Below, one piece after another: positions 27,433 through 64,000 of a stretch of 64,000 nucleotides of DNA. The DNA is from Xylona heveae TC161 (lineage: Eukaryota; Ascomycota; Xylonomycetes; Xylonales; Xylonaceae). The stretch is taken from contig NW_017264201.1 of assembly GCF_001619985.1 (NCBI RefSeq), positions 1,302,001-1,366,000 of the forward strand, written 5' to 3'. Within the stretch, counting starts at the first letter, position 1. Each line of letters starts with the position of its first letter. The position numbers were made by a program, and so were the translations under genes. The notes beneath the pieces are model-generated. The model saw only the letters and a program-made list of their open reading frames with translations, was not told where the DNA came from and ran no database searches.

Positions 27433-27937
27433 CTGTAAATACAACCACCTTAGTTATTCAAAGAACGACTGATAGAACGACGTTGAGTGGCATTGTTTGC
27501 AATTCCATTAACTCATGGCAAATCGTAATAATCTAGTGTGCTGTAACGAAATATGTTCTATCTTGACAGGATAATAATATTACCAAATACTCGAGTTAGT
27601 AGGTCTGGTGTAGCAATCATGAATTTGTCATGTCATTGTGAAGGAAATTACGTGATTGAGCAAAATCAATGCAGCATTGCAAGCACTGGAAAGTAAAGCT
27701 GTCAGTTGTAGTAGATGTTGCGTATCACGGCGAAAAGTCCTTGGAGAAAATGCCTTAATTATCTTCATCATCACCATTATCACTATTGTTATTTATTTAT
27801 TTATTTAGGAGACGATTATTTATTTCAGATTTTTATGATTTATATTCAACGCAGGTTATCGTTATCCATCGATTATACATCAACATGTCTTTTAAATTAT
27901 ATGGATACGAGGTAAATAGACAGTTCCCCAAGTTTGG
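27433..27937. other. Intergenic with ATTT repeats
   Basis: This 505-bp AT-rich spacer has a short TTATTTATTTATTTA run near 27788-27808. No gene is supported. Confidence 0.6.
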
Positions 27938-41293: not shown

Positions 41294-43039
41294 TTATGAG
41301 GGAAGTCCATCATCAACGAGTGTGAGGTTGAGCTTTCCCTGGTAGATTTGGCTCGGACGCCAGATATGTACATTGCCGCCTATTTTATAATATTAGTAGT
41401 GAAGGGGGGGGGGGGGGGGGGGGGGGGGGGGGAAGGAAAGATTTATTCCGATAATAGGCAGAAAATGAAATGGGTTCATACTCATGGCTTCTTTCCAATG
41501 TGCTAAAAATCCCTGAGCACGAGATAGCATCGAAATTGGTAGAATAACCTCAGGAGGAAAGCCCCTATTTTAAAGTCAATCACAAACGGTTCAAGGAATG
41601 CCCAATCAGAGGTGCTGGAGAGCGGGTATCCAAACATTGCTTTATATGCGAATGCAGCAAACAAATCTGCATTGGGTTTCAGTTTGCGGGAAATAAAATA
41701 CTCATCTTCCTGTGCAATCCTGTCGAGTTCGAATGCAACCTTCAAGAGTGGATCCTGAGCGATCTCGTCCTGTAGATCGTCCAGAACGTGCTTGATAAAG
41801 ACATATCGGGGATCAGAGACACGATAGACACGGTGGCCGTAGCCATAAAGACGTTCTTTGTGCTCTTTTACCCGACTCAACTTCAATGGAATCCTTTCGA
41901 TTGAGCCAATCTCCTCGATTTGTTTGTACGCAACCTCTATCGCACCGCCATGGAGCGGGCCATACATTGCAGACAGGGCGGAGATGATACTCGAAATCAA
42001 ATCTGGGAGTGCCGAGGCTGTGTGTAAAAGCGCAGCAGTTGAGCACGTCATTTCATGGTCTGCGATGACGACCCAAAGACGCTCAAAGGCATCCACGTAT
42101 CGTGGATTGGGAAGGCCAGTGTGCGGGTCGACATGATTGGTCATGTAAAACCAGTTTTCGATATATGAGAGATCTGGCCTTGGATTGTTAAACCTCCGGT
42201 TAGAATGATGAGTGTATGCCACGGCCGTGATGACGAGGAATCGAGAGACGAAATTTATGATTTCATCATCTATAACACTAGGTTCACCAAGAAAGATTGT
42301 TTTAGCTTCATGAGCGGGTACCCGATTCATCTGTGTTGATTGTAGGGCAGATAGACCAGCAATAATCATGCCCATGATTGAACCCTCTCGGCTACACTTT
42401 GCGTTAGAAAGCGTCTTAGTCAGGCATGCTTTGGGCTGTAGGCTCACGGAAATGATCGGATAACGTCAAAGACAGCTTTGCCTGGCAAAGGTACGCTGTT
42501 GATATTGACTTGCAGCTTTGCTCGCTCCTCCGACGAGGGCCATCGCCCCCAGATCAACAGGTGCAGGGTGTCATAAAACCCTTTCCTGCCCACAATCTGG
42601 TCAATCGAGTACCCACGGTATTGAATTATTCCTTTCAGACCGTCACTAAAAATTGAATTAGTTCTTGACAGCTCCACCAATGCAAAAATGATGAGAGCAC
42701 CTACATGTAGGTGATCTCGCTTCTCATCACCGCCGTATTCGAGAAGCCGGGATCGTACACTCGAAGCCCTTTTTCATTTTGATCGGCTTCGTAGATCCCC
42801 GCAGGAGCAGTAATGTGCTTCAGGTCGCTGGCTGTTATGGCGTTGTTCGTTATAGGAATGTTATAATAGCTCCCTGTCCGCGAGTCGACGACATGAAGGA
42901 CGTCGGATGTTGGCTTCTGAATCTCGCTTGTGGTCTTTGTAGCGATGTCTTCTTTTACCGACGGCGTGGCTATCGAGCGGCTAATTGAACTGCCTATGAG
43001 GGTTGTATTGTCGGCGATATCTTGATGCGGTGCCATCAT
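41294..43039 (-). CDS. Citrate-synthase-like enzyme (alkylcitrate synthase candidate)
   Basis: Five exons (42705-43039, 42448-42645, 41636-42391, 41482-41564, 41294-41379) give 485 aa. Citrate synthases condense an acyl-CoA with oxaloacetate. The catalytic residues are present: His in ADHEMTCST (about 290), His in GPLHGGA (about 325) and Asp in LKPNADLFAAF (about 420). DGLKGIIQYRGYSIDQI is the usual opening of the core. The first 110 residues are an extension without a mitochondrial presequence, which argues against the Krebs-cycle enzyme. Adjacent FAS alpha and CAD-like genes suggest it uses a longer acyl-CoA from the dedicated FAS to form an alkylcitrate. The last intron carries a 29-nt homopolymer. 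It is divergently oriented to the FAS gene. Confidence 0.9.
41404..41432. repeat. Homopolymer run of 29 G in an intron of the citrate synthase gene
   Basis: The run reads as C on the coding strand, inside the last intron (41380-41481). It could be length-variable and could affect splicing, or its exact length may be a sequencing artefact. Confidence 0.85.
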
Positions 43040-43785
43040 TTAGGTGTCTAATAATCGAAGATAATCAAGGGCTCCTATACTCTGTACGTGATGTAGAAGC
43101 TCATCACACACAGCTCCTACGTCGAGTGCGGAACTCACTGGTTATTATAAACAATATTACAAATAATAACATTACAAACGGGTTTATCAATCACGACGGC
43201 GTGAATATCATCCTGGAAGACATGGCTGCTGCATAGAACTGTGGTCTACGGAAGGCATCTATGGAGGGAGAATCATCCGCCCCGGCATGGGCGGGTTCCG
43301 GAAACATCGACGCAGAAAGTCCGCTCCACGGAGAAAACCTGTGCCGAGTACGCTCAAGTGTGTAGGTCGGAACTTCGTTTCAGCGAAGCATCTACGCAAT
43401 CTCAGAATGGGTGGAAGGACGATGACCCTTGAGACTAGTCCAGCTTGTCGACTCTATACTTCAAGACGTACGCGAGACGAGTCGCTGTTTCTCATTCCGA
43501 GCCCTGCTACTACATTCCAACAGCTGTTGATTGAGTTGTGCAATTGTGCATTTGTGTGGATAGTTTCCAAAATAATGCAGGGGCACTGGTCTCCATGAGG
43601 CCTTGGTCAAGCGTGAAAGGAGTACAAATCCGGGTTACAGTGTCTTTCATATATAAGGTCCGAAATAATTGAGGATTACTTACCCCTCTATCCTTGTACA
43701 GGCATTTGTCTTCTAATGTACACATTGAATTGAACATTTGTTTTCTTCATTACTTTTAAGCACTTCCTACACCTAGCAATTGCCC
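43040..43785. promoter_or_regulatory. Shared divergent promoter of citrate synthase and FAS alpha
   Basis: This 746-bp region separates the starts of two genes expected to act in one pathway, so it probably holds common control sites. It contains several CGG/CCG triplets of the kind Zn2Cys6 proteins bind (for example GGTTCCGGAAAC near 43290 and GGTCGGAACTTCG near 43366), but no defined site can be named. Short open frames here look like chance. Confidence 0.5.
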
Positions 43786-46700
43786 ATGGAGGAAAAGCGT
43801 GAAGAGCGGCCTTCGTCACTACAAATCTGCCATGAACAATCTTTATCTCGAAATCTCTTAATCGAGTTGCTTGCGTTAGTTGAAAGTGCAACCTAGCTTT
43901 GTCTTGACATTGCTAACTATTTTTTTATTAGGCACCAATTTGCATTCCCCGTCAAATGGTAAGAAATAACTCAAACGATACTCGAGGCTTATGCAATAAT
44001 GATTAATTTAGGATCGATACACAAAATGCAATTTTTCAAAGCAAACCCCCGGTCAAGCGAGTAATCGAGATTGGACCGTCAACAACTCTTACAAATATTG
44101 CAAAGAGAACTCTTAAGCGCAATGCTTTGTTTGGAGACAATTCGAGGACATTAATATCAACGTCATCTGATATGGGAGAGATTCTATATCACTACAAGCA
44201 TGAAGAATCTTTTCCTGTCGATACGGGTGAAGATGCATTTGTCGATAAAGACGAATCATCGAATAGACTCGAAGTAGCACAGAAGCCTTTGGCTGACCAG
44301 CGGGCGCCGGCAGAACTTTTGACGCAAGTGCTTGATGTTCCACTGTCAGCAGAAGATGTTGTGTTGGTAGTAGTGGCAAGCAAATTAAGAGGTCCCGTGT
44401 GGAATATTGACGGGCTAAAATCTATTCGGACATTATCTGGAGGTAGGACTATTGAGCTATCCATTTGACTGAATTTATCTAAGAGAATCCGTCCTAGGAA
44501 AATCCACACTACAAAACGAAATAGTTGGAGACTTGAGTACAGAGCTTGGAAAACTACCTGAAGGAGTTGAGGATTATGCCCTGAACGGATTGGCAACAAC
44601 CATGAATGAAAGCTACTCTCATCAACCAAAAGATTATATACAGGGCCTGATATCATCTTTTGTGGCAACAAAAATGCCGGCCGGCCTTAGCCAGTCCATG
44701 ATCAGGGATTATCTGAGCACCAAATGGGGATTAGGACAAGGCCGACAGAATGCAGTCCTTTGCTGGGCAGCAGCAGCTCCTCCTCCGGTGCGCTTTCAAA
44801 GTCGCAGAAGTGCCTATGAGTATTTCGAAAAAGTCGTGCATCACTACGCACAGAGAGCTGGTATTTCATTACATCCGAAGGCTGTAGGGATAGGTAGTGC
44901 CAAAGACAAGTCTCCTGTCATCGACAAGGTAGCATTTGACACAGCCATGAAAGAGCATAGGGAGTACCTCCGCGAGCACATGGACCTACTAGCAAGGCAT
45001 CTGGGCACTGAACCTTCACAATTTGGGGCTGTCTCCAATCAAAATCAACCCTACGACCAGAATCTCGTTGAACTTGTCTCAACCGAGTTTGATACTGAGT
45101 TTCTAGATGGCTTAAAACCTCGGTTTGACAAGAGAAAAGAGAGACGATTCAATTCCTGGTGGAACTGGGCTCGCGAGGACATCATCAACTTATTTCATGC
45201 GCAAGCACTCCATGATTCATGTGGACCTGAAATCACCCGCAGTATCCAACGCATTCAAAGAAGATGGGATCAAAATTTTGTTCCACTTGTGCAATATCTA
45301 GGCTCCATGTCGACCAGCCTAGAGAGAAGTGCAGATCTCAAAGCACTCAGTCACGATATTCTGAAGACTGGTGACGAAGGAAGTGATATTTGGCCCAGAT
45401 ATGTCTTCGATGAGCCCTCATTCGCCCCCAAAACAGCCGTGGATGAAAATGGGAACATTGAATATGTACAGGTTCCTCGATTCAATGTACAAGAAGGGAC
45501 AAGCTATATCAATTGGCTAAAACGAGGTTTCTCCATTCCAGAATCTAACCTTCAAATACCTTTCGTTCATCTCTGTCGGAAAAGCCAAGGAAATTGGATA
45601 TATGACGATTCTATGACAAAAAAGCTTTTGACTGCTATTATGGCTGGAACGACCGAAGGATACAATTTTATTGGGAAGACTGCGCTTGTCACCGGAGCGG
45701 GAAAATCTTCCATTGGTGCAGAAATCGTCCGTGGACTCCTCGAAGGAGGCGCTCGAGTGATCGTGACAACTAGCGGCGATGTGTCAGTGTCGGCAAAGTT
45801 CTTTGAGAGCATTTACAAAGGTTCCGGAGCACGCCATTCAGAATTGATCATTCTGCCTTTCAACCAAGGAAGCAAAAAGGATTGTGAGGAGCTAGTTAGA
45901 TATTTACTCCCTCCAGAATCTCCGATCGCTCTAGATTTCATTGTTCCATTTGCAGCTATTTCGGAGACGGGTCGACAGTTGGATGAATTAGATGGCAGAT
46001 CTGAACTTGCACATCGAATTATGCTCGTCAATCTATTGCGACTGCTAGGATATTTGAAGCAACATAAAGAGACCCTGGGCTTGAATACCCATCCTACCAT
46101 GGTCATCTTACCATTGTCACCCAATCATGGATCTTTTGGAGGCGATGGCTTATACTCCGAATCAAAGATTGGGCTAGAGACATTGTTCAACCGCTGGCAC
46201 TCCGAGTCCTGGTCCGATTACTTGACAATTTGTGGTGCAGTCATTGGATGGACACGCGGAACAGCGCTCATGGCAGACAACAATATTTTGGCTGAAGCCG
46301 TCGAAGCGCAGGGAACCATGACATTCTCCACATCTGAGATGGCTCTGAATATTCTTTCACTTATGACACCAAGTATTGTGATACTGGCTGAGGACAAGCC
46401 AATCTACGCAGACCTTACTGGTGGTCTATATGTTGTGGAAAATTTAAGAGCGGTACTAAAGACTGCGAGAGAGTCGGTGTCCACAAAAAGCAATATTGCA
46501 AAAGCTATATCCCGAGAACGCTCCATATACCGTGAAACCCTTGATGGAAAATTGGATGACACAATTTTACCATCGTCAAAACGCCGAGCATTACTGAATC
46601 TCAAATTTCCTGAATTGCCGACCTTCGCAAGCCTAAGAGCTGAAAGCAAGGCTGTTAGCAGTATGGTGGATCTCAAGCACACCATTGTGATTGCAGGATA

Positions 46701-49482
46701 TTCAGAGCTGGGGCCATGGGGAAATTCACGTACAAGGTGGGAGATGGAGTATCAGGGAGAGCTCACCCTTGAGGGTTATGTTGAAATGGCATGGTTGATG
46801 GGCCTTATAAAACGCAAACAGGGACCTGAGCAGTACGCAACGTCTTGGGTAGATACTGAATCTGAACAATCGATTGATGAAAGCGACATACCTGAGCGTT
46901 ACCATCAACGGATTATGAATCACTCAGGGATCCGGGTAATAGAGCCGGAGGGCTTGGGGGGGTATGACCCCAAAGCAAAAGAGATCTTGCAGGAGATTGT
47001 TGTGCAGAAAGACTTGCCTGTGTTTGATGCCTCAAAATCCGATGCAGAGGCTTATAAACGACGTCACGGCAATCATGTCACGATTTTTCCAAAAGATGAT
47101 GACTCCAACGAGTTCTCTGTACAAATTAAACAGGGTGCGCAGCTACTTGTACCTAAGGCCATACCGTTTGACCGCAGAGTCGCTGGACAGCTGCCTAAGG
47201 GCTGGAACGCACAACGATACGGCATACCAGAGGACATCATCTCTCAGGTAGACCCGATTACACTTTATATTCTTTGTTGCGTCGCAGAAGCATTTCTCAG
47301 TGCTGGTATCAAGGATCCTTTTGAACTGTATCAGCATGTTCATCTCACCGAGATTGCAAATTGCCTGGGCACCGGAGTAGGCGGGCTGACATCGATGCGT
47401 GGTGTATATCGTGATCGTTATATGGGAAAGTCGATCCCCAATGATATCTTACAGGAGTCATTCCAGAATTCTCATGGGGCTTGGGCAAATATGCTTCTCT
47501 TAGGGGCAACGGGTCCGATTCGTTCACCGGTGGGCACCTGCGCCACTGGGGTAGAATCTCTTGACAGTGGTTGTGAAGCAATCAGGTCCGGTAATGCCAA
47601 AATAGCAATTGTTGGTGGGTCAGACGATTTCCAAGAGGAGCTGTCTTACGAGTTTGCAAACATGAAAGCTACTACTAGTTCAGAGGAACAACTTAAGGCT
47701 GGCAGAAACCCAAAGGATATGTCCCGACCCATGACCTCGTCTCGCGCAGGGTTTATCGAGTCAGCTGGATGCGGTGTTCAGGTTCTCGCCACAGCAGAGC
47801 TTGCCTTAAGGCTAGGCCTACCCATCTATGGCATCGTAGCCTATAGCCAAATGGCAGGGGATACCGTTGGCCGTTCAGTTCCGGCTCCGGGAAAAGGTGT
47901 CTTGACAGCCGCCAGAGAAGCCTCTGGGAGAATTCCTGTACATTTAGATTCCCATCGTTCTGTTTTCGACAAAGATGAAACCCGGATCAGAGAATGGCGT
48001 GCGGCAAAATTTGTCGCAAAGGCCAATGAACAGCCCACCAGTCTCGAAGACTCTGTCAATGCACTGGCAAACATAGAGTTGCGGGATCACCGAAGCCCAT
48101 GTCCGTGTCACCTTAGGGGCTTGGATCATCGAATTTCCCCGATCAGGTCTGCGCTGGCCATCTGGGGTCTTACAATCGACGACATTAACATGGCATCACT
48201 CCACGCTACATCCACCAAGGCAAATGATAAGAACGAGCCGGAAGTTTGGAATCAGATGATGGATCATCTCGGCCGGTCTGTAGGAAATCCGCTTCTCTGC
48301 ATAACACAGAAATATCTTACTGGACATCCCAAGGGTGCTGCGGGGTCTTGGATGCTGAATGGAGGCCTTCAGGTCCTACAAACAGGCATCATCCCCGGAA
48401 ATCGCAACGCAGACAATATTGATAGCGCACTGCAACACTTTGAGCATCTTGTCTTTCCTTCACGTACAATTCAAACAAGCAACGGAGTAAAGAGTTTCAT
48501 GATGACCTCGTTTGGATTTGGTCAAAAAGGTGGCTTGGCCCTTTTAGTGGCACCCAGATACCTTTTCGCAGCGATTAATGAAGACGAATATCTTTGTTAT
48601 AAGACAAGGGCAAAGAAACGGTTTCAACAAGCCGATAGTGCCTTTGTCAATCGACTTTTGAACGAAAATATCGTTCAAGTTAAGGAAAAACCAGCTTGGT
48701 ATAAGACAGGCCCAGAGCTTGTTTTTCTGGACCCAGAGGCACGCGTCAGTCGAGGAGAAGATGGTAAATTTTTCTTTGATCCAGAAAACTTACACCCACT
48801 TACTCCGGTAAGTATGGACTGCAGCGTTGGATTAAAAAGTAACAGGCACTATACTGTGTCTTTTTCCCAGGACACCTCACAAACATTGCAACTCGATAGT
48901 TTACAATCGGAACTGCCTTTGAATAATGGTAATCTGCAGCAACCAGACGCTTTCAAAAAGTCCGCCGATATTCAATTTGAAAAGGAGGCCCTACTTTTGC
49001 AAAAAACACAAGCTACATTGCAAGCAAACCTAGGACACTTGGATCATATTACGACCGGGATAGATTTGGAAAATATATCCTCCGTGCCATCTACAAACAA
49101 AGTGTTTGTAAGAAACAATTTTACTCTCCTAGAAAGGGACTATTGTGCTAAAGCACCAAATCCTGCTGCCTCTTTAGCAGGGAAATGGAGTGCCAAAGAA
49201 GCCGTCTTCAAGAGCTTGCAGATACCATCACTAGGTCCAGGTCAATTTCTTCAAGACATTGAAATACAAAATGACAACAGCGGTCGTCCAATTGTAAAGG
49301 TAAGTACTGTGTTATATAGTTAACTGGGGAGATTTATATGCTTACACAAAGGTATCAAGCTTCATAAGGGCGTCCTTGAAATTGCAAGGGAAGAGGGGAT
49401 ACAATACATAAATGTTAGTATCACACATTCAGAAGATGTGGTTGTGGCTGTGGCTATTGCCGGTCGGAGCAAAACAATGTGA
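43786..49482 (+). CDS. Fatty acid synthase alpha subunit, secondary-metabolism type
   Basis: Five exons (43786-43874, 43932-43958, 44012-44442, 44498-49299, 49360-49482) give 1823 aa. Domain order follows fungal FAS alpha. First comes the end of the malonyl/palmitoyl transferase with VIEIGPSTTLTNIAKRTL. Then come the acyl-carrier domain with the phosphopantetheine Ser in LSGGKSTLQNEIVGDL (about 185) and the ketoreductase with KTALVTGAGKSSIGAEIV (about 577). The ketosynthase follows, with its Cys in PVGTCATGVESLDSG (about 1197) and His in HATSTKAND and TGHPKGAAGSW. Last is the phosphopantetheinyl transferase from about 1704 (GIDLEN, AGKWSAKEAVFKSL). It forms a hetero-dodecamer with a beta subunit. 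Its place beside citrate-synthase and CAD-like genes marks it as a dedicated FAS making a short or medium acyl chain. All catalytic residues are intact. The beta-subunit gene is not in the window. Confidence 0.95.
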
Positions 49483-49745
49483 ATTCTCTTTAAAAGTATT
49501 TCTATTAGATAGCCAATGTACTAGGGTGTGTACAGATTCAATTACGTTTATAGGACCTTTTCAATTCATATTTTTTTTTGCACCTTTAGTCCTTCTAGCA
49601 AGCGTATTGTATTTTCTGATAACTTATTTTGACTCCTTTAGTTGCAAAAACACACTTGCTGAATCGTGCTATAAACATGGAAAATGTAATCAATTGTATC
49701 AAAAGCCCAACAGGCAGTCTATTACACCAATTACTTGGGTACTTT

Positions 49746-51058
49746 TCAAGGGCCCCTCAGTCTACAAAGCACCCGAGCTGCACCGCCTTTTCCAACAGCC
49801 CAGATTTGCTCTCCATCTCTGCCAGCGAAGGCCAGATTGGCCACAGTAAAATTCGTCAGAATTCGTGCAATTAGTTTCCCATTTGGAGCAAGAATATCTA
49901 GTCCATGTCCGGCTGCCGTGATCAAATAGCCATTCCTACTGACTTTGATGCCATCTGGCACATATTCAATTGCTTGGTAGATGGCCCTTTTATTTCGCAG
50001 ACTACCATCTTCAGCATCGACATCAAAGGCATATACTGTTCGGGGGCCGGTACTTTTATACTGTAACGGTTTCCCAACACCAGATGGGCTGCCAGCGCCA
50101 GTGTCTGTCAAGAACAAAGTTGAGCCTGACAGAGAGAATGAGATACCGTTGGGTTCCTGGAGGGACGATTCGACCATAGTAACTTCGCCTGTTGATGGTG
50201 TAAATCTGTATGTCGCAGTCTGCAGCTGAGGCGCCTCCGAGTTGACACCTGTTGAATGGGCATAGTCTTGAACATGGAGAAACTTTGTTAGTTTACGCTT
50301 ACCAAGCTATTCTTGCAATTCGCTGCTCTCTTTATTCGCTCATGTTCAATTCAGTTCAACTCACCATTATCTGTAAACCACACGTCACCAGCGGGCGAGA
50401 TGTCTAAATCGTCCACGCTATTGAAAAAGTAACCATAGTAATTGTTCAGCAGAGCTGTACTATGTCCAGACGAAATGTTCAGCGTATATATACCCGGTCG
50501 GATTGGCATAGAACCAAGCTTCTCGCTGCCACCTAACGTTGCATAGTATATCAAGCCGTCGCGATACCGTGCCCCAGCTCCCGCATAGATGGGGGGTTGA
50601 GCCATGCGCTGTGACAATGTCGGCGGGTCATTCGTGAGGTCAACCACTAGTTGGTAGAGATAGTCTTTTTCCAGTCGAGACATGTATAGCTCATTCGTCT
50701 CCGGAACATACACTGGGCCCTCGTGTGTAACCTCTGTCAGCTCAAACATAAAGTCCAATCGTGGACTTGGCCCAAGGATATCAGGTCCCATGTGAGGATC
50801 GAAAAGGACGAAATGAGCTTGCTGCACTGCCTGAAAGGAATGATCATCGGGCATCTGGATGGTGGGGTATGTATCGGCATCTCCGATCACATCGTGAACT
50901 TCGCGTTTGAAACCTGGGGATAAAACACTGCCATGATTGTTCACACAGACCACAGACGGAAATGAATAGCCTGGACAGGAATTTATTACAGGAGAGATGC
51001 TCAACACGCTGGAATTTCCGTACATACTCGGCGACATAGAAAATGCTTGTTGACTCAT
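49746..51058 (-). CDS. SMP-30/gluconolactonase-type lactonohydrolase
   Basis: Two exons (50365-51058, 49746-50266) give 404 aa if translation begins at the ATG at 51058. A six-bladed beta-propeller lactonase is indicated by NNHGSVLSPGFKREVHDVIG, PDDHSFQAVQQAHFVLFDP, VTHEGPVYVPETNELYMS, YYGYFFNSVDDLDISPAGD with VWFTDN, and QEPNGISFSLSGSTLFLTDT. Calcium-binding Glu, Asn and Asp residues lie in these blocks. The enzymes open or close lactones of sugar or polyketide-like acids. Fungal members usually have a signal peptide. Here none is evident at this start, and an upstream exon may be missing: a good donor, branch site and acceptor occur at 51059-51097, but I could not fit the phase. In this cluster it may process a gamma-lactone form of the product. 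Confidence 0.83.
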
Positions 51059-51326
51059 GTTTAGTACACAGGTCTGGGGACTGGCCACCTTACCATTAGT
51101 GATGCCAGTACAGCAACCTTATGGGCCCGGTGGATCACAATAGTGGAAAGGTGATTAAGAACAAGCATACAAGTCTGATGCGAATCCCGTTCGGCATATC
51201 GGATATCCACCACAGCAGCAGCATGGTTAACATCGGAATTTTGAACCTCCGTGAGAGAATACTTTAACAATGCGGCGGATATGATATCGAAGAGTGTGAA
51301 AAAGGAAGGTATCAATTCACGACACA
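51059..51326. promoter_or_regulatory. Short divergent promoter of lactonohydrolase and decarboxylase
   Basis: The 268 bp between the two start codons force co-regulation. A GCGGCGGATATGATATCGAAG stretch lies near 51271-51291. A similar GATATC(A/G) followed by a CGGAAG or GAAG core recurs just upstream of the ligase gene near 53339-53357. This hints at, but does not prove, a shared site. Confidence 0.4.
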
Positions 51327-52781: not shown

Positions 52782-53390
52782 AACAATATGAAGCATTCTA
52801 CGGTAGACTAAAGCACTGACATTTCGCGAGTTCCTCAGAACAACCTGGACGGATAATTCTATAGATGGTAGCAACAAGCTCAACACCTAACATGGGAGAC
52901 TTTGTTTTTTTATGCACCCAATGAGCGCTTTTATTGTACTTGTCTTCGTCCCTGCTGGACGAGGGTACGTAAATTAAGACTCGGTCAAATGTCAGCTGGC
53001 GAACCGATAGAAAAACTAATAAAAGACTTTTCATGCTCACAGGTACTTCTAGTCATTTTAGTCACTCTCACTGATTTTTTTGGATTATCCCATAAAATGG
53101 CATTGCAATGTTCTCGGCATAGGAATTTCCTGTTGGCTGATGTGATCTGGGTTCCGTCGCGGTGCAGTTATTTCGCAATTCCGAAATCCCGAAAAGAATC
53201 ATCAATTGCTGCACCCATCTGGAACAGCATTATGCCGTGTACACAGAAAAAAATAAATACTTCAGGAAGCACGTTGGTGTCGTTGAGAAAAAATTATTTA
53301 GAAGTTACTTTCGCACACGCATAACGAAGCTCATATAGCGATATCATTCGGAAGATCTAAAAGAATAAATTATCAGCTCAGATCACAACC
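52782..53390. other. Intergenic, promoter of the ligase gene
   Basis: The 609 bp between two plus-strand cluster genes have no convincing gene. The open frame at 52902-53324 has no family features. Confidence 0.6.
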
Positions 53391-54671
53391 ATGGCTGATC
53401 CACTGCACCTCGTTCTCCAAGAGCTCGTGAAGTTTGTCCGCGCCAACTCGCCTTATTATCGCGAACTGTACAAAACTCTAGAGCCCAATGTTTCCGATCT
53501 ACAAAAGCTTCCTGTGATCCAGAGCGAACAGTTTTGGGAAGCCAACACTGTGAACAACAACCGTCTCCTGACTGGGCCCATAATTGATGGTGGCATTTAT
53601 GCCAGTGGAGGGACAACGGCGACACCAAAGATCTCCTATTATACTAGGGACGAGCTCCGGCGCCTTGTGCAAGCGTTGACCATTGGACTCGTACGCTCCG
53701 GAATCATGCCCGGCGACCGCATAGCCAATCTGTATAACGCAGGAGATCTGTATATGGGGTTTCTGCTCCAGATACTGTCCCTTCAAGAGTTCTCGATACC
53801 AAACGTCAACCTCCCAATCACAGGAAATATCGCGGCACAAGCAATTGTCAACCATCTAAAGATCTTAAAGGCAACGGTCATTTTCACCAACACGACGACG
53901 CTTTTGCGAGTGGCCGACCATATCTTGCAAGCCGGTTCGCCAAACGAGAACATCCGTTTGATTTTGTTTGCGGGAGAGTCTATGTATCGGGATCTCCAGC
54001 CACTCTTGAAGCGTGCATTCCCTCAGGCTAAAGTTGGCCCGCTCATGTTCTGCTCTGTGGATGCAGGAATGATTGCCCTACCGATCAAACCTCTCACAGA
54101 GGATGCGATTGATACGGATGCTACATATGTCGTCAACTCCCCCTCTATCATTCTTGAGCTCTTGGACGACAACGATAAGCCTATAGTTCAGTCTGGTCAT
54201 CCCGGTCGTGTTGTGATCACAGACTTGACCCGCAGGTTGCAGCCAGTGATCCGCTACCCAATGGGAGACGTTGGAGAATGGGTTGACTTCAACGCCCAGA
54301 CCTTTGCCGTCCGAGGACGCGATGCCGTCGCTGTCAAGGTCAGCACCGTTATCCTGGAACTGCCACTTCTGCGAAAAGTTCTTGCTGAGACGTTGGGAGA
54401 CACCGTTCTCACATTGTTTCAAACGGTGATACGACGGAGAGAAAACCGCAACCAGGTGATCTTCCGCATTGCAAATGGCAAAGAGCCACCGAATCCAGAA
54501 TTGGTGGAAAAGGAAATACATGCAAAGCTGGCAAAACTACGTCCCCAATATGAGTACAATGTGGCACAGCACAATATTTTCCCAATTAGCTGCGAATGGG
54601 TCGGAATTAAGGAGCTGCAATTCAATGTGCGGACTGGAAAGCTGAAGGATATTATTGACGAGCGTTATTGA
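53391..54671 (+). CDS. PaaK-like adenylate-forming enzyme (acyl-CoA ligase candidate)
   Basis: This is a single-exon gene of 426 aa. The AMP-binding P-loop is YASGGTTATPKISYY (about residues 67-81). LFAGESMY and IRYPMGDVGEWV carry the later adenylate-binding Glu and Asp, and a small C-terminal domain with FNVRTGKLKDII follows. The order and the short length match the phenylacetate-CoA ligase (PaaK) branch rather than the 550-aa fatty acyl-CoA ligases. These enzymes activate a carboxylic acid with ATP and pass it to CoA or another acceptor. In the cluster it could activate a free fatty acid for the citrate synthase, or the final di- or tri-carboxylate. The usual Gly-Arg-x-x-(Asp/Glu) hinge reads RGRDAVAVKVS, so the hinge is present but atypical. 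Confidence 0.82.
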   Translation: MADPLHLVLQELVKFVRANSPYYRELYKTLEPNVSDLQKLPVIQSEQFWEANTVNNNRLLTGPIIDGGIYASGGTTATPKISYYTRDELRRLVQALTIGLVRSGIMPGDRIANLYNAGDLYMGFLLQILSLQEFSIPNVNLPITGNIAAQAIVNHLKILKATVIFTNTTTLLRVADHILQAGSPNENIRLILFAGESMYRDLQPLLKRAFPQAKVGPLMFCSVDAGMIALPIKPLTEDAIDTDATYVVNSPSIILELLDDNDKPIVQSGHPGRVVITDLTRRLQPVIRYPMGDVGEWVDFNAQTFAVRGRDAVAVKVSTVILELPLLRKVLAETLGDTVLTLFQTVIRRRENRNQVIFRIANGKEPPNPELVEKEIHAKLAKLRPQYEYNVAQHNIFPISCEWVGIKELQFNVRTGKLKDIIDERY

Positions 54672-54993
54672 TTAAGATGATTTCACTGCTGCTAGTACAT
54701 GTGCATGTTTGATGAGCACCATTTTAAGAGAACTCGGAATATAATGCTGGAGGCCATCTACCAAAAGGCCGATACTAGCTCATGTTCAATAATACTCTCG
54801 GAATTTTGGAAATCCGAGATCAGAACCACCGTGTAGGAAGTGTTCATCCTATCTAAAGACGGGGTTCCTATTAATAATACACAAGCAATTTTAAATATAT
54901 TTGCACTTCGTTTCCCTGACGTAGTAATTTATATGGTCACAGGGTGATAGATTAATTAAGTCTGTTGTATCCTGGCTATTCTATGCCACCAGC
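54672..54993. other. Intergenic
   Basis: A 322-bp AT-rich spacer with no gene; it probably holds the terminator of the ligase and the promoter of the transporter. Confidence 0.6.
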
Positions 54994-56683
54994 ATGTCTA
55001 TCACTGTGCGCACCCCGCTATTGAGAAATGAGCATGTATCATCTCAGTTACGAGTAAGCTCCTCTCCGCCCTATATTTGTTTGATAGGCAATGTTAGGGG
55101 TAGGAATTAATATTTATAAAATTAACAGGAATGGGATGATCCACGCAAATGGTCTGCAGTTCGAAAATGGACTCTTGCAATACTCGTCTCAAATTATGCT
55201 GTCATGGGTCCTGTTTCTGCTTCTATGGTTGTCACGAGTATAAAAGAGATCTCGGCAGACTTGAATCTACACTCCGAAGTGGCCTCGCAATTGTTAGTTG
55301 GAATTTTTGTGCTGGGACTGAGCTTGGGGCCTCTTTTCATGGCACCTCTGAGTGAGGTCTATGGTCGCTGTCGGGTTCTAAATACAGGCCATGCCTTATT
55401 CCTTGTTGTAAACATTCTGTCTGCTTTGGAGACAAATGGAAAAAGATTCTTGCTGCTACGGTTTTTCGGAGGATTTGTTGGTAGCAGTCCGAATGCAGTA
55501 TGTCCATTTCATGTTTACGCTCCTATGCTGTCTAGCTAACTGACTACTCACAAAGATTGGCACTGGAATATTGAGTGACCTCTGGAGCAACGAAGATCGA
55601 GGACATTCCCTGGCAGTTTATACCTTTCTTCCTCTCGCAGGACCTGCCATCGGTCCCATCATGGCACAATTGATCCTCGAGAAGGCGTCGTGGAGGTACA
55701 TCTTTTGGGCAAGCTCTTCTTTTATCGGGGCAACCTTACTGGTTGGAATCTTCCTCTTGCAAGAGACGTTTGCTCCTGTGCTCCTGAGAAAGCATTCAGA
55801 GCAATGCATAAGACCAGGTCATCCAACCCGTTGCAATGTCGAGCATCCCTTCAACAAAAGTAGTGATAGAATCACATGGTATGCACTACTTAAGCAGGAG
55901 ATGTCTCGTCCATTCATTCTGCTTGGGAGTCAACCGATCATCCAGATTCTGGCTTTGTATATTGGCTATCTATTTGGATTGAACCAGTTGACTATAGCAA
56001 CTTACCAGTCTCTCTGGACCACATCATATCGAGAACCCAAAATAACGGCCTCGTTGCATTATATTTCGATCGCACTAGGTTTTATTCTTGGTTGCCAAAT
56101 TGGCGGACCCATCAATGACAAGGTTAGGATACCCTTTCTATCCACATTTCGTCTCAAAAAAAAGGGGGTTCATGCTTCTTTTCTGCCAGAATTTTTAATC
56201 ATGTTTGACGTTATTTTGTACCAGATATATGCAGCTCTGAAGCGCAAACACGGAATTGGCCTCCCTGAATTCCGTACTACGGCGATGATCATTGCCTCAG
56301 TTTTTGTTCCAATTGGCCAGATTCTTTACGGCTGGACCGCACAAAGGACTTGTTATTGGATTTTTCCTGACATCGGAATCGTTATCTATTCTTTTGGTCT
56401 GATCATAGGCTACCAGTGTATCCAATCTTATGTTCTTGATTGCTACCCCACTTACTCTGCATCGGCAATTGGGGCTCTTAGCTTTCTACGGGCCCTTGCA
56501 GGCTGCGCCTTTCCGGTTTTAGGGCCTCCACTATATCGTGCACTCGGTTACGGGTGGACTAGTTCATTGCTAGCTGCAGTTGCAATACTAGTGGGTTTAC
56601 CTGCGCCGATGTTGCTCAATGCGTGGGGTCCGCGACTCCGCAGGCTGAGTCCATACGCGGCTGGAGAAACAGTGAATCTATAG
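54994..56683 (+). CDS. MFS transporter, DHA1 drug:H+ antiporter type (first cluster transporter)
   Basis: Four exons (54994-55053, 55129-55497, 55556-56122, 56225-56683) give 484 aa. The last intron (102 bp) is in frame and free of stops, so an uncorrected reading adds 34 false residues. Removing it gives GGPINDKIYAALKRKHG, the usual DHA1 loop. WDDPRKWSAVRKW opens the first helix. PLSEVYGRCRVLNTG is the loop 2-3 signature, GFVGSSPNA ends helix 4, and PLAGPAIGPIMAQLILEKAS is motif C, typical of antiporters. It is likely a plasma-membrane exporter of the cluster product or a self-protection pump. Confidence 0.87.
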
Positions 56684-57447
56684 TTGTCAAGTTCGCATTT
56701 GGCATGCTAAAGATCGATGGGCAATGGTGCCATGGATATGTGCCTTTTCATCCATCAGAGTGGCTCTACACAACCACTAGGAGTATATGACTTCAATGTC
56801 TACACAGAAAGTCAAGTTGATCGAAGAAAAGAAGAGCAAGCCTTCCAGCAATACTAGCTTCATACATTGTTTCACTTCTTCTCATTTACAAGAGGTTCTG
56901 TCTTTGATATTGCACGATGCTACTCGTCAAAGCCTGTTGTGTTTCTTGGATAGAGTGGGTCTTTTCCTTTCATAGCTCCTCAATATTTCTCGACTAAGGT
57001 AATTACGGTCAGACACGGAGCGTGTCGATCTTTAATGCAAAATGTTACACAGTGGACAAGAATATGCCCATATAGTTGTGTCAATATAAACTTGTGTTGA
57101 TTAGCATTAAATCTATCGTATAATGTTATTCTCTTTCTTCTGCTTCATTAGCTATTGTTCGCCAGAATTTGTAATCTGAATATCCGGTCTCGCTTCGGAA
57201 AAACACAACACCGTGCAACAGCGAATAAGCAGCGATCAATCCAGCATAACATTCTATAGACGCGCGCTAAGAGCGCCTCCCGCAACTTTCTCCCTCCGTT
57301 AAGCGCGATAGGTATGTTTACAAAGGCCTATATAGGAGGGACTGAGCCCGCTAAAGTCATGATGTGGCCCCTGATTTATCAAAAGTCTCATTTTCCCGAG
57401 TTTGATTCTTGTCTATTAGCTTTTGGCGGGTTGAGCGGGGCTATACA
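56684..57447. other. Intergenic between two MFS genes
   Basis: A 764-bp spacer without a supported gene. A GCGCGC-rich hairpin-like stretch lies near 57260-57310 just upstream of the second transporter. Confidence 0.55.
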
Positions 57448-59302
57448 ATGTCAGAAAAATCCAGTCAGCTGGAGACTCCCGCTCAGCTCGATCTGGAGAG
57501 CGGTCCGGAATCGGCGTCTCGGGCTGCTGAAGATGGAAAACCAGTGCAACAAGAGAACGATCCAAATATTATCGACTGGGATGGACCCGATGACCCAGAG
57601 AAACCGATGAACTGGCCAAAGTATCGCAAAGCTGGCATTATTGCAACTGTTTGCATGCTGAGATTTGTAACGTACGCTACCCCAAGTCGACATGGTTGCA
57701 GCTGCTTATCAGAAAATGCTCACTTAGGCCTCTTGCATCATCAATGATGGCAGCCGGGTTGGTGCAGATCGAAGAGGACTTCAAAAATGCCGGAGTGATG
57801 TTCATCACCTTTTCTGTCTCAATATACGTATGAAGCGATGGATTTTTTTTATATGTACTGCATTAACGCTAATGCTTTTTAGATTATTGGGTTTGGTCTC
57901 GGACCATTGGCTTTGGCACCCTTATCCGAAGTTTACGGTCGGAATATAATCTACCATATCGGGAATATCATGTTCACTGGGTTTACCGTCGGCTGTGGTG
58001 CATCACCCAATGCAGGATCATTGTTCACCTTCCGGCTCCTATCGGGAATTGTTGGCGGAGTACCCTTGACCAATGCCGGGGGAACAATTTCCGATATTGT
58101 TCCCGTTAATCGCCGCGGGTCGTAAGTACAATGGTGCTCTCCTAAAAAAGACATGCAGCTGACCGGCATAGTATCATGACATTATTTACTTTGTGTATGC
58201 TAGTTGGGCCGGTCATTGGCCCGACAGTCGGCGGGTTTCTTAGCGAGGCAGCAGGCTGGCGTTGGATCTTTTGGTTGCTGACAATCATGGTAAGTGATCC
58301 AAATGTCTCGAGAAATTGCTATTGCAGTATATATACTTATCATAGAATACGATTCAGAGCGGCTTGGCTACGTTATTTGGACTTGCTTTTCTTCGTGAGA
58401 CTTACGGTCCAGTCTTGCTGGAGAGGAAAGCAGCCCGACTGCGTAAAGAAACAGGAAACCCTTTACTGCGGGGAAAGGGAAAGATTGATTTGCCCTATCG
58501 CCAACTCTTATTTCGGAATCTGTCGCGTCCAACGAGGATGCTGATATACAGCCCCGTTATTCTAGGAGTCTCGTTATACATGGCGCTTGTATACGGAGTC
58601 ATCTACCTCCTATTTACAACATTCTCGGTTGTTTTCCAAAAAACATATGGATTTTCTGAAGGGATTGCAGGTCTGTCATATCTTGGTACCGGCGTTGGTA
58701 TGGTCATTGCTCTTTTTAGCATGGGGTGGTATAGTGATGCCATTCACATACGCTTGACTAAGAAGTATGGCACTGAGCTACCAGAGTACGTTAGAATTCT
58801 GCCATTACATTACCTCCGAGCAAAAAACAATGCTGATAAATCAAGGTATCGACTTGCCCCGTTGCTTCCCGGAACCATTGCACTTCCAATCGGACTTTTC
58901 ATATACGGCTGGACAGCACAGTATAAAGTCCATTGGATAGTTCCCATTATTGGCACTGCTTTTGTAGGTATTGCCACTACTGGTTCGTTTGTAAGTTGGC
59001 CAAAATTATCCTTTGTATGATCAGAAATTCTTAACGCCATTAACAATTCACAGAATACGATCCAAATTTACCTTGTAGATGCATACACTGTACATGCAGC
59101 CAGTGCTTTGGCTGCGAATAGTCTGGTTCGTAGCCTAGCAGGTGGACTAGTTCCTCTTGGGGGGCCAAGCCTGTATAGCAATCTCGGTCTCGGATGGGGA
59201 AATTCCTTGCTTGCTTTTCTAGCCATTTTTTTTGCAATTTTTCCTTTGTTATTTTATAAATTTGGCGAGCGGTGGAGGAAGAGGTATAGTGTCAGCTTCT
59301 AG
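57448..59302 (+). CDS. MFS transporter, DHA1 type (second cluster transporter)
   Basis: Seven exons (57448-57671, 57728-57827, 57883-58121, 58172-58289, 58358-58785, 58846-58990, 59054-59302) give 500 aa. The long hydrophilic N-terminus with IIDWDGPDDPEKPMNWPKYR is the hallmark of the fungal polyamine/drug DHA1 group. PLSEVYGRNIIYHIGNI, NAGGTISDIVPVNRRG and GPVIGPTVGGFLSEAAGWRW (motif C) follow in order, then LPGTIALPIGLFIYGWTAQY and the VDAYTVHAASALAANSLVRS end. It differs clearly from the preceding transporter, so the two are not a recent tandem copy. The role is probably export of the acid product. Confidence 0.88.
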
Positions 59303-59592
59303 ATTACGGTGCTCGACTCTACAAGCCAATGTGATAAATGCATTAGAATGAGAAGACGTATAGTGATTATGATTGGTGTTTATTTAAACATGGATCGTCT
59401 ATTGAATCACAAATTTAAAATAACACATTATATTATTATATAAAATCTTTGGAAGATATTAGAATTTATAGATTAACATGAAATTGGCTACGTAAATTTA
59501 GCAAAACACAATTATATCATCTGGATTAATATAGAGCTGATTATAGAAGTCAGCCAAGACTAGAGTTGTCCGATTGCCAATCTATAGGACGA

Positions 59593-61105
59593 CTATTTAA
59601 TGCCTTCAGGAGTCTCGAAGAGAGAAGCAAAGTATTCCTGGCGTGACTGGCTTGCCGGATCAAGGTATGGCTTCTCCGCTGTTGAAAGAACGCGGAAACC
59701 ACGGCGCCTTCCTACTTGGTCTTGGATAGGAGCATGGTATGTACACCTATTATCCCAAATGGCTTGGGTAAAAGAAATGTTAACATAGTTACCGACTTTC
59801 CCAGACAGTTCAAACTGGTATATGGCTGGGTCAATCGAGACAGAGAGAGAGTCCTCTAAAGACAAAAAAGAGGTACATACCGATGTCATTTTCGTTCTCC
59901 CAGCGAAAACGCACCTGAAGGTCTGGATTCTCTGCAATCAACTTGAGAACCTTCTTGAGAAGATGCACACTTTCTGCAACGCTCACGTCGTGGATTTGCT
60001 CGCAGTGGACACCAGCTGCAAATACGCTCTTCCATCCGGTGATGGGATGAGTACGAACAACGGGATGTCGATTTCTAAAGCCGGTGCCGACATTAGCCGG
60101 CGAGCCCCGTGGTCCATGAAAGGCAGTTTTTCCTCGGGCCTCGCTGAAAGAGTTTAGGGCTTGCTGCGAATGAGTTGCTTCGAGACTATCAAAAAGCTGG
60201 ATAGTTTTGTCATTATATGCACTTGATATCTTCTTGCATTTTCGTTCCAGCCTCTTTATGGCAGTTGCAGTACTAGTATAGCTCCTGGAAGTAGAACTTA
60301 CCTTTTGATATGGCACTGAAAGTCGATCGTAGACTTCATACCCACTGGCCCAGATAGTATCTTAACTAATTATTAGTCTCGTAATTAAAAACCCTGTTTG
60401 GAAATTCATTTTTCTCTGCTTCACTCTCCGAGTTTTCTATTTTCTTTTGCCATGCTCTGAAAAATAAAATTGAATATAAAACAAATGAAATGAGATGAAA
60501 AATAGAATTTAAAAAAGATATTCATTAACGGACCTCACTTACCTCCTCCTCCACCTGGAGGCAACTCCGTCAATCTCAGGCTGCTAAAATCAGGCGGATT
60601 CAGCTCAAATGACATATCACTGTGCCACTCGTAGATCCCTGTTTGCTTCTTGTTGCCCTTCAGATCCTTTCCATACATTTTCTTCAGGCGATCTGGATCT
60701 AGCGTTGCGAGTTCTGGGTCTTCCTCGCCCAAGACATTCCAGAGTGGATGAATGTAGAGTCCGTTTTCCTCGGGCCGGCCCGATAGGGCTCCGAGGCGGT
60801 ACAGGAGCTCCTTGTGTAGCTCGCCATTGAGGTTCGTCTGGTGACGGAAGAAGACCACGCCTCGCTGAGCGACTATGGTTCTCATAGGTTAGAACACTCC
60901 CAGCAAAGTTCGATTTACGGGTAGACATACTGAGGATGGCCAGATCACGAATCAAATCATCCGATGTCTCTGCCCGAAGCCATTCGGCAAGGTCAACATT
61001 CTTGAATTCAGTGCCAATGCAAGGCGTGAGTTGGAAATGATCAAATTGATTGAGAGTTCCACTGAGCTGCAAAGGAGCGGGATACTCGATCTTCGAGGGG
61101 CTCAT
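59593..61105 (-). CDS. TauD-family Fe(II)/2-oxoglutarate dioxygenase of the cluster
   Basis: Five exons (60931-61105, 60543-60872, 60302-60360, 59881-60196, 59593-59762) give 349 aa. The start is the ATG at 61105, since the nine bases upstream in the same frame begin with TTG. Iron ligands are the H-x-D pair in YEWHSDMSFEL and the distal His in RCTYHAPIQDQ, followed by the 2-oxoglutarate Arg in GRRRGFRVLS. GVVFFRHQTNL, LFDSLEATHSQQ and NRHPVVRTHPITGWKSVF complete the TauD pattern. Intron 3 is long (105 bp), and its acceptor was chosen by family fit; a nearer acceptor would add about 16 residues. It likely hydroxylates or desaturates the alkyl chain of the cluster product. It is a different protein from the dioxygenase at 21.6-23.2 kb. 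Confidence 0.88.
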
Positions 61106-61676
61106 TGTTGCCAAGGTTGATTACAGGAGATATGCTACTTGAAGTCATGCAAATGAAAGTCAAATGAGACATATCAACCCAGCTTCCGCATCCCTTGCTA
61201 GGTCATTCTAAGAAGATATATCCAGCTGATGCAAAGAAGAGACTAGAAGTTACTCTAGAGCATCATGCAAACACAAGTTCAAGCTCGGGCTTTCGTTCAG
61301 TTCGTAATTTCAACTGCCGATGGATCTCGGAACTTCAAAGAACCGAACCGGAGGCAGAAGATTCCGCAAAGAATTCTGTTGTTTGATTGTAAAAAGGAGC
61401 AATGCAGGATAGCCTTCATATCGGAAAATGTACTCTTTGCTCTCGTTATCATCTCTATTCATGACCGATGGAAATTTTCGGCAGATGTGTGGCTATAACA
61501 TATATACTCTAGGAAAATAATTGTACTTACAAATCTAAATTTTTAAAAATCTTCATATGACCGGGCATGTCAATCCAAGTTAGATTATTTTCAACACATT
61601 TCCAAGCTCAACATAATCTATTAATACGCAGTGAAGCATATAGAACAGTCAAGAATTGCCAGACCTATCTATAGCT
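61106..61676. other. Intergenic
   Basis: A 571-bp spacer between two minus-strand cluster genes. It is AT-rich with no gene I can support. Confidence 0.6.
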
Positions 61677-64000
61677 TCAATTTGCTTTCCCTTTATCTAG
61701 ATCTACAGGGCCCTCATGGGGGAGTCCACTCAAATCATCTGTGCCGTCCCAATCATTGATCCAGTCAAATGGTAGACTCAGGTCTGTCTCCGAGAATTGA
61801 TGCAAAAGCTCGGGATCTATGAGAGGAGGTGGAGACAGTGTCGACGACGCAGACAACAAAAATCGAGATGGTGAGGGCTGTTCCACAGGAGCGACGTTTT
61901 CTGAAAAGGAAGGTTGTGGAGACCTAAGAGGCGTGGGGGAGCCCGTGTCAAGATGAGCTGATACATCATGGCTAGATGCTGTGCCTATCAGTCCAATCCA
62001 ATCCTTTACAGACGCGGATTGAGTGGCATCGCTTCCTTCTGCATGTTCTAGGCGCCGCTTCTTGCGTGCTCGACAGGCACTTGCATGTTTAATGACTGCA
62101 GCAGTGAGCTCATAGCATCTACTTGTGGCAGTGAGGGTCTTTGCACAATAAGTTGAAGGGTGATCTGCTTTGCTGACACTCCGCAAAATAGACACGACGC
62201 GGTGCACAAGTTTAAGATCCTCAGGAACGCAGGTCGTTCTAGGGTACCTGAGTAGCCTTGAGAAAATCTCAGAGAAGGCCGAAAAGGGGCAGAACTCAAA
62301 GATCCTAACAAAGCTTAGTAGTGTAATGCGGCAAAGAACAAAATCGGCTTCTAACAAGTACGAACCTGCGCAATGCCGCTTCTTTCCCTCGAAGCTCTGC
62401 CGCATCATCGAGATCGATAATTCTGCCAATAGTGGCACGGGCTTCGTCTAAACATTGCCTGTCCCCTAAAGCGTCGGTACTGAACCGCATCACCATAACT
62501 AGACACATGCCATAAAGTGTAAGCAGCTCAGGGCCGACATAGTGACATGGATGGCTTGGTGAATTGTCATTATTAGAGAGCAAGGACTCGTTCAATAAGA
62601 GCCAACGTTGCAGCTCATGCTGTAGCCGGTAGACTGCATCTTCTCGTAATCTGGTTGACTGTTGGACAGCCTGTGCAGAATATAGACTTGTGTAAATTTG
62701 CTCCTGGATTTTGCTGAGATGGATGCGAGCGAGAAACATTTGCTGTGGAATGTCGTCTGTGGCAGGGGAAGGAAGGGGAACATTGCAGTCATATGAGGGT
62801 AGGGTACATGGCTTGCCAGTTAGGAAAAAGATGGCTTTGTCCAAAACAAATAGACACCAAAAGAGATTTTGACGTTCGGGTGAAAGTAATGAATGAGAAG
62901 CCAAGGAATAAGGTCGCTGCTGGTGCAAACCCATACCCTTGGCACAATGAGATGCATGTTCCATTAGAAGTTCTGCAACTTCAATTTGAAAATTGTCTAG
63001 TGCAAAGAGACACTTCTGCCTTGTCAGTATCAGAGTGTTAAGACATTGTAGCACTGCATCCTTAAGAGGGAGTGCGTGTACAACAGAGTGCAAATAAAAG
63101 AAGAAAGAGGGAGAGGGGAGAGAGGAAGAGAAAAGAGCGGGACTAAAAGGGTCCCCCTTACAAATGATACTAAAGCTTGCACAGTAACAAATTTTGGCTT
63201 TAGCAACTGGCCAGCATCTCGAAATGCACGCCGAAGGTTTACAAGGAAAGGCTTGAGAAGCTCCGCGTCCATCACCTTTTCATTCGTATCCTGTGGCGTA
63301 CTGCGATATTTTGCACAGAGTGTATGAGATGTAATGCAGTTTAGTATGAGATATAGAGCAATATCTTGCTCCTCGGGGGGTGATGAATAAGCATTTCGGA
63401 TGTAGTCGTATATCTGGCTTTTCTCAAATATAGGGAAAACAGTATTTATCTGCTCCAGGAAAGGCTGAACTAGCGCGTTGACGAGGCCTTCGGATGGCAG
63501 GGTAATTGACTGATTATCATGAGAAAGATCAGCATAATCATTGTGCACAAAAAGGCGGAAGGCGTCCTGGCATAATTGAGATAGCCATGTATAAACATTC
63601 ATCTTTGGGTCATCTTGACCCTCTGTGTTCTCTGGAAGAGCTGTTTGGCTTCTTAAGCGTTGCTCTAGGGCCAGTATAGCATTTCGAATCAGCAGTAGCA
63701 TCGAACTGGACCCGTGGTGCTTCTCGATGCCATTATCCTCGAAAGCAACATGATTGCATTCTGATCTAGACGGGGACACTTGGGTTGCGCGGAGAACCTC
63801 GACCTCCGGTAATATTTTAGGTTCACACGGATTTTGATCGCCACGGGGCAGGATTGCAGTACCACTGATCTGCTGAATAGCATTAAGTGACTGCCGAAGT
63901 GCATCTTCAATGCGATCTAAGCGGGCATGAAGAGAGTCAGGTGTGGTAGAGTGATCGCTCGCCGGCCTGGCTTCTTCCAGCATCTGCAAGCGCCCTTCGA
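61677..64000 (-). CDS. Fungal-specific transcription factor, Zn2Cys6 type, N-terminus beyond window
   Basis: Three exons are visible: 63162 to the right edge, 62366-63060 and 61677-62304, about 720 residues. The N-terminal part shows a coiled heptad-like segment (LHARLDRIEDALRQSLNAIQ) that usually follows a Zn2Cys6 DNA-binding cluster. The cluster itself would lie upstream of 64000 and is not seen. The middle matches the fungal-specific regulatory domain: LVQPFLEQINTVFPIFEK, AELLMEHASHCAKGMGLHQQ, ERQNLFWCLFVLDKAIFFLT and GKPCTLPSYDCNVPLP. The C-terminus is acidic and Pro/Ser-rich (WINDWDGTDDLSGLPHEGP), like an activation region. It is the best candidate for the pathway-specific activator of the 41-64 kb cluster. 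Confidence 0.85.

Follow-up and report, generated by a model that had tools for sequence, protein, structure and literature searches.

Among described fungal gene clusters, the closest to the locus reported here are the oryzine cluster of Aspergillus oryzae (oryC-oryR) and the sporothriolide cluster (spo) of Hypomontagnella. According to passages of the papers cited, octenoic acid has been proposed for oryzine (PMC6162547), and the acyl-CoA used by SpoE in the case of sporothriolide is decanoyl-CoA (PMC8403587). We analyzed a 64,000-nucleotide stretch of the genome of Xylona heveae TC161 (class Xylonomycetes; contig C9, positions 1302001-1366000), hereafter called the window, together with the approximately 9.7 kb of the contig that continue to the right of window position 64000. 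A set of 11 genes was found across 31.7 kb, from 41294 to 72968 in window numbering, the last two lying past the window end. With a probability of about 0.78, we consider this set to be a fatty acid synthase (FAS)-dependent alkylcitrate cluster with the pathway and regulation proposed below.

The gene models were obtained with a custom small gene finder, except for the deposited citrate synthase, and Pfam matches were found for 10 of the 11 genes, the PaaK-like protein being the exception. All nine genes named in 41294-64000 by the original prediction, an earlier reading of the window's sequence, were recovered by gene models and Pfam, or by a PDB sequence and a predicted fold in the case of the PaaK likeness; their order and strands are given in Table 1. 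The same prediction had made a neighboring FAS beta gene a decisive point, and reading past 64000 indeed added two genes, encoding FAS beta and a PrpD-type dehydratase. The search of the 24.3 Mb genome located MmgE/PrpD proteins at three places, two of them inside the 31.7 kb cluster, and the FAS-alpha acyl carrier protein (ACP) at two places, one in the cluster and the other in an FAS alpha locus on contig C8, while citrate synthase occurred at three clear places and a weak one. As MmgE/PrpD and the FAS-alpha ACP are rare genome-wide and yet present here, the co-occurrence of these genes goes beyond chance.

The deposited X. heveae citrate synthase (P0164) was 100% identical to our own model over 92% of the model, and its C-terminus comprised extra exons beyond the model, with the stop codon at 41294. 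No obvious mitochondrial presequence was seen by eye, in line with what had been claimed for this protein. A run of 29 G at 41404-41432, in the last intron of the gene, may be a weak point of the assembly. The main exon of FAS alpha contained the Pfam domains FAS_I_H, Fas_alpha_ACP, KS, ACPS and an SDR-type domain, and that of FAS beta contained the Fas1-AflB helical, MaoC, FAS1 insertion, SAT, meander and acyl-transferase domains. The E. coli PrpD matched by the dehydratase is a 2-methylcitrate dehydratase, and the closest relative of the dioxygenase among solved structures was taurine dioxygenase (2.8e-21). The zinc cluster of the regulator lay at approximately 64233, just beyond the window end (PF00172, 4.5e-12).

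Judged from the families of these proteins, the dedicated FAS alpha/beta pair would supply a medium-chain acyl-CoA, which the alkylcitrate synthase would condense with oxaloacetate to give an alkylcitrate. The PrpD-type dehydratase would convert this compound to an alkylaconitate, and the SpoK-type enzyme would decarboxylate the latter to an alkylitaconate. The TauD dioxygenase may then hydroxylate the alkyl chain and the SMP-30/gluconolactonase-type (SGL) lactonase may close a lactone, with the two MFS pumps presumably exporting the product. The in-cluster Zn2Cys6 protein would activate the gene set via CGG-N12-CCG sites. The product is thus proposed to be, most likely, an alkylitaconic acid that is hydroxylated and lactonized in an oryzine- or sporothriolide-like manner. 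The original prediction had suggested the same course, from an FAS-derived acyl group and oxaloacetate through dehydration and decarboxylation to an alkylitaconate followed by oxidation, and it gains support from the completed gene set and the kinship described below. It is quite unlikely that the pathway ends at a simple acid of the piliformic- or hexylitaconic-acid type with the dioxygenase and the lactonase serving another task. The core is common to piliformic-type clusters, and A. niger makes open-chain hexylitaconic acids (passages of PMC8403587 and PMC7338620, respectively), but the dioxygenase and lactonase genes are both present here and both have the common promoter motif.

The presence of a decarboxylase also bears on another alternative, a maleidride-type cluster whose products would be dimeric anhydrides. 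Such clusters have alkylcitrate synthase and dehydratase types in common with this locus (passages of PMC8851701), but they use a highly reducing polyketide synthase, and no polyketide synthase was detected among the 11 genes with Pfam. Moreover, the decarboxylase would strip the carboxyl group required for an anhydride, as judged from passages of PMC6162547. On these two grounds, a maleidride product was regarded as extremely improbable.

The kinship of the citrate synthase and the decarboxylase was then considered. A tree built from 55 of the 120 listed rows placed the citrate synthase within a 42-row group (support 100/95) whose members were 48-67% identical to it, while a separate 13-row group showed approximately 40-46% identity. 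The 42-row group included Aspergillus species of section Flavi, Penicillium canescens, A. luchuensis and Hypomontagnella monticulosa, and these rows are probably OryE-, AkcB- and SpoE-type proteins, as named from the species and not from assayed enzymes. This placement qualifies the X. heveae protein as a putative dedicated alkylcitrate synthase of the secondary-metabolism group. Among the matches listed, the decarboxylase shared 61% identity with two proteins, one from Hypomontagnella and one from Seiridium that is annotated as "putative SpoK". Identity was 53% with an entry named "cis-aconitate decarboxylase [synthetic construct]", which we take to be A. terreus CadA, and 52% with a protein of A. 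niger, which we take to be HadA. When 40 of the 120 listed rows were used to build a tree, the decarboxylase was placed inside an 18-row SpoK-type clade (98/95), apart from the presumed CadA and HadA rows. In a seven-sequence alignment, the stretches VGGCHGQIE and HDGW were the same in the decarboxylase and the SpoK-type rows and differed in the presumed CadA and HadA rows. The idea that the decarboxylase is unrelated to OryM/SpoK, which came from weak matches to solved decarboxylases, was dropped in view of its approximately 60% identity to SpoK-type fungal proteins. By sequence kinship, both enzymes group with species carrying known or likely FAS-type alkylcitrate clusters, and proteins of H. 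monticulosa itself group with both.

Citrate synthase and decarboxylase relatives occurred together on 22 contigs among the matches listed (119 of 2118 and 119 of 2029 matches, respectively, all of them rows other than that of the window). The same contig was judged by equal size as a stand-in for identity, and some of the contigs are large. A smaller first count with 71 and 64 rows likewise gave 22 shared contigs. In four named species, the locus tags of the two genes were 3 to 11 apart, namely in Pestalotiopsis fici (09702/09705), Apiospora kogelbergensis (009082/009078), Parahypoxylon (009954/009960) and Lecanora helva (003865/003854), and such close tags indicate true nearness of the genes in these four.

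Paired CGG triplets are common binding targets of Zn2Cys6 proteins. When 700 bases upstream of each gene were scanned, the palindrome CGG-N12-CCG was found ahead of nine of the 11 cluster genes and one of the 14 genes to the left. In intergenic DNA, there were eight sites in 4,847 bases of the cluster and one in 15,909 bases of the control region left of the cluster, the intergenic borders depending on our gene models. Dinucleotide shuffles gave a mean of 0.24 sites, and eight sites were reached in none of 1000 shuffles, even when the maximum over 63 patterns (spacings and orientations) was taken. The sites occupied six of the 10 intergenic stretches of the cluster. As three of the stretches each serve two genes, the nine motif-bearing genes correspond to six independent places. 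Two of the four site-free stretches lie between convergent genes, where absence is expected because there is no promoter, and the other two precede the PaaK-like gene and the regulator gene. Across the whole 73.7 kb, 19 sites were present, of which 10 were inside gene models: five in cluster genes (42784, 48274, 51901, 60082 and 60776), four in genes to the left and one at 247. The common promoter motif suggests that the cluster genes may be switched on together. A narrower pattern, CGGAAYTT-N7-CCG, was not enriched genome-wide (23 sites compared with 28 for the reversed control); four of the 23 were in the cluster, a circular count because the pattern was drawn from these very sites.

Table 1. 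Genes of the X. heveae cluster and CGG-N12-CCG sites, in window numbering
Feature	Position	Strand	Basis or location
Putative alkylcitrate synthase (citrate synthase family)	41294..43039	-	PF00285 5e-81; deposited X. heveae protein P0164; tree
FAS subunit alpha	43786..49482	+	1802 aa in 6 exons with one gene-finder setting; with the other, the model starts at 44172
SMP-30/gluconolactonase-type (SGL) lactonase, family of OryH/OryL	49746..51058	-	PF08450 5.5e-25
Probable MmgE/PrpD-family alkylaconitate decarboxylase, SpoK-type	51327..52781	+	PF03972/PF19305; identity and clade
Candidate PaaK-like acyl-activating ligase, single exon	53391..54671	+	PDB PaaK 9e-7; predicted fold
MFS exporter 1	54994..56683	+	PF07690 7e-30
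MFS exporter 2	57448..59302	+	PF07690 6e-39
TauD-type Fe(II)/2-oxoglutarate dioxygenase	59593..61105	-	PF02668 9.5e-36; one splice junction hand-picked
Zn(II)2Cys6 transcription factor	61677..64000 in window	-	PF04082 (Fungal_trans)
FAS beta	64780-70939 (past window)	-	Pfam domains in main exon
PrpD-type dehydratase	71435-72968 (past window)		452 bits, 1.2e-134 to E. coli PrpD
CGG-N12-CCG site	43283..43300		citrate synthase / FAS alpha intergenic
CGG-N12-CCG site	43329..43346		citrate synthase / FAS alpha intergenic
CGG-N12-CCG site	51234..51251		lactonase / decarboxylase intergenic
CGG-N12-CCG site	54799..54816		upstream of MFS exporter 1
CGG-N12-CCG site	57196..57213		upstream of MFS exporter 2
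CGG-N12-CCG site	61328..61345		upstream of dioxygenase
CGG-N12-CCG site	61349..61366		upstream of dioxygenase

Several observations weigh against the assignment as a whole. The oryzine cluster has two lactonases, an oryD-type dehydrogenase and a P450 remnant, according to passages of PMC6162547, whereas a single lactonase and neither of the other two were found with Pfam among the 11 genes; it is the lack of the dehydrogenase and of the second lactonase that counts here. The branch position of the citrate synthase inside the 42-row group was poorly supported in the tree. The decarboxylases of A. floccosus and Lecanora helva are linked to a citrate synthase and yet lie outside the SpoK-type clade, indicating that linkage and clade are not strictly coupled. 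Neither the upstream nor the intergenic scans detected CGG-N12-CCG before the PaaK-like gene or the regulator gene, of which the former case is the adverse one. The leave-one-out matrix scores of the sites ranged from 7.2 to 20.2, and the sites at 43283 (10.6) and 43329 (7.2) were at background level once left out of the matrix; the top near-site before the PaaK-like gene scored 10.4, which is also within background. Neither chemical nor expression data were found for X. heveae. Among the papers listed in a literature search, none linked Xylona heveae with citrate synthase or alkylcitrate-type products; the X. heveae genome paper and the sporothriolide paper lay outside this search, and a prior report may exist.

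At a threshold of 1e-3, Pfam gave no match to the PaaK-like protein; its sole AMP-binding match fell below that threshold (0.01), and NCBIfam gave weak AMP/PaaK models far under their cut-offs. The likeness to PaaK came from PDB sequences (Table 1) and from an AlphaFold model (pLDDT 79, pTM 0.69), for which the top Foldseek matches by E-value were PaaK1/PaaK2 with a TM-score of 0.57-0.61, an rmsd of 8-11 and 16% identity. Among the matches listed, relatives were sporadic, with 48-50% identity in Geoglossum, 35-42% in other named fungi and about 30-40% in bacteria. A tree of 40 rows, consisting of 39 of the 43 listed (that of the window included; P0029, P0040, P0042 and P0043 left out) and the second copy of this genome, placed all named fungal rows except Oidiodendron in one group opposite the named bacterial rows (100/99), so that a recent bacterial transfer of the gene was not supported. 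The second PaaK-like gene is located on contig C16 (13047-14336); it is 37% identical and lies beside an MFS exporter. The predicted proteins in the 30 kb around this copy appeared by eye to be unlike the cluster core genes. The idea that both copies travel with a close exporter was rejected, as the exporter on C16 was only 33% identical to each cluster exporter.

It is possible, if doubtful, that the ligase gene, which occurs sporadically in fungi, resides in the cluster as a passenger without a part in the pathway. It is the sole enzyme gene of the cluster lacking the motif, a second copy exists on another contig, and none of the 42 listed relatives was on a contig matched by equal size to those of the relatives listed for the citrate synthase (119) or for the decarboxylase (119). 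However, the frame is intact in a single exon, with 42 columns invariant across 17 aligned rows, and the gene is flanked on the same strand by two motif-bearing genes.

Should the ligase have a part in the pathway, its most likely role would be to convert a free fatty acid to an acyl-CoA, as passages of PMC6162547 report to have been proposed for OryP of the oryzine cluster, or alternatively to activate an intermediate at its carboxylate. The surroundings of its bacterial relatives were inspected in the best 80 of 135 confirmed loci. By tblastn, LuxE-type genes were near in 71, LuxC-type genes in 74 and GNAT genes in 75 of the 80 loci, and the LuxE/LuxC surroundings hint at fatty acyl substrates for the ligase. 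A repeated gene set (e.g. L045:6428-12183) comprised LuxE, LuxC fused to an AMP-binding part, the PaaK-like gene and GNAT, sometimes with MFS. The possibility that bacterial PaaK relatives reside in citrate-type clusters was rejected, since none of the 80 loci matched any of eight cluster genes queried by tblastn at 1e-5 (citrate synthase, FAS alpha, lactonase, decarboxylase, MFS1, dioxygenase, regulator and dehydratase; FAS beta was not queried). MFS2 was weakly matched in two of the 80 loci at the same threshold.

The original prediction had suggested that the PaaK-like enzyme may lead to a product not previously reported. Fungal FAS itself passes its chain to CoA, and an extra ligase need not therefore serve the first step. 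The ligase might instead activate the alkylitaconate or its hydroxy acid, leading to an ester, an amide or a CoA-dependent second lactone, a class of derivative undescribed for alkylcitrate clusters. The position of the gene between the decarboxylase and exporter genes agrees with such a role. The gene belongs to a sporadic fungal family for which no tie to alkylcitrate pathways was found among the searched material. Nevertheless, we consider this role unlikely: no acceptor enzyme was recognized among the 11 genes with Pfam, the ligase gene lacks the motif, LuxE/LuxC genes of acyl reduction lie near its bacterial relatives, and the OryP proposal concerns a fatty acid.

To the left of the cluster, the next genes were a GNAT gene and an MFS gene; at the other end, the contig terminated 724 bases beyond the dehydratase gene. 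A catabolism-like run at 19200-28812 of the window comprised a purine/uracil-type permease, a second TauD dioxygenase, a Cys/Met-metabolism PLP enzyme and an HpcH/HpaI aldolase, as well as a small protein that was GST-like by eye; this run may be a separate degradation cluster. A predicted protein at 34150-35382 combined a bZIP-like stretch, seen by eye, with subsequent ankyrin repeats, an uncommon pairing.

X. heveae is an endophyte of the rubber tree. The locus places an oryzine/sporothriolide-type gene set in Xylonomycetes, outside Aspergillus and Xylariales. The set is compact, and its regulator, its predicted binding site and its order of steps are open to direct testing. The CGG-N12-CCG site provides a handle for switching the cluster on and for asking if the PaaK-like gene belongs to it. 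As sporothriolides are antifungal (passages of PMC8403587), a relative from a plant-associated fungus would, if made, be of ecological interest. The cluster leaves the understanding of the alkylcitrate pathway class unchanged.

Compared with the known systems, as described in the passages of the papers cited, the locus resembles the oryzine cluster in having the citrate synthase-FAS alpha pair near one end and the FAS beta-PrpD dehydratase pair at the other, and in having an aconitate-type decarboxylase, a TauD-type dioxygenase, a gluconolactonase-type lactonase, MFS transporters, a regulator and a ligase in between, whereas the inner gene order differs (PMC6162547). The ligase here is PaaK-like, while the closest UniProtKB match of OryP is acyl-CoA synthetase family member 3 (PMC6162547). 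A linked decarboxylase, probably of the OryM/SpoK type, is a feature of the oryzine/sporothriolide sub-type that this locus shares, and the dioxygenase and lactonase of that sub-type are present at the family level (PF02668 and PF08450). The sporothriolide cluster likewise provides alkylcitrate synthase (ACS), FAS, dehydratase, decarboxylase, dioxygenase and lactonase functions, but the passage on sporothriolide mentions no PaaK-like gene (PMC8403587). The akc cluster of A. niger combines FAS alpha, citrate synthase, a Zn2Cys6 regulator, dehydratase and FAS beta as here; its five core genes are contiguous and the decarboxylase gene hadA is unlinked, whereas tailoring genes intervene and the decarboxylase lies inside in X. 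heveae (PMC7338620). The cinatrin cluster (ctr) of Hypoxylaceae also has FAS alpha/beta, ACS and an iron dioxygenase, but the ctr genes listed in the passages of PMC13178491 include an FAD monooxygenase and neither a dehydratase nor a decarboxylase. The X. heveae cluster belongs to the known oryzine/sporothriolide kind, and what is new here is the motif at the cluster promoters and the ligase gene, both of which can be put to the test.

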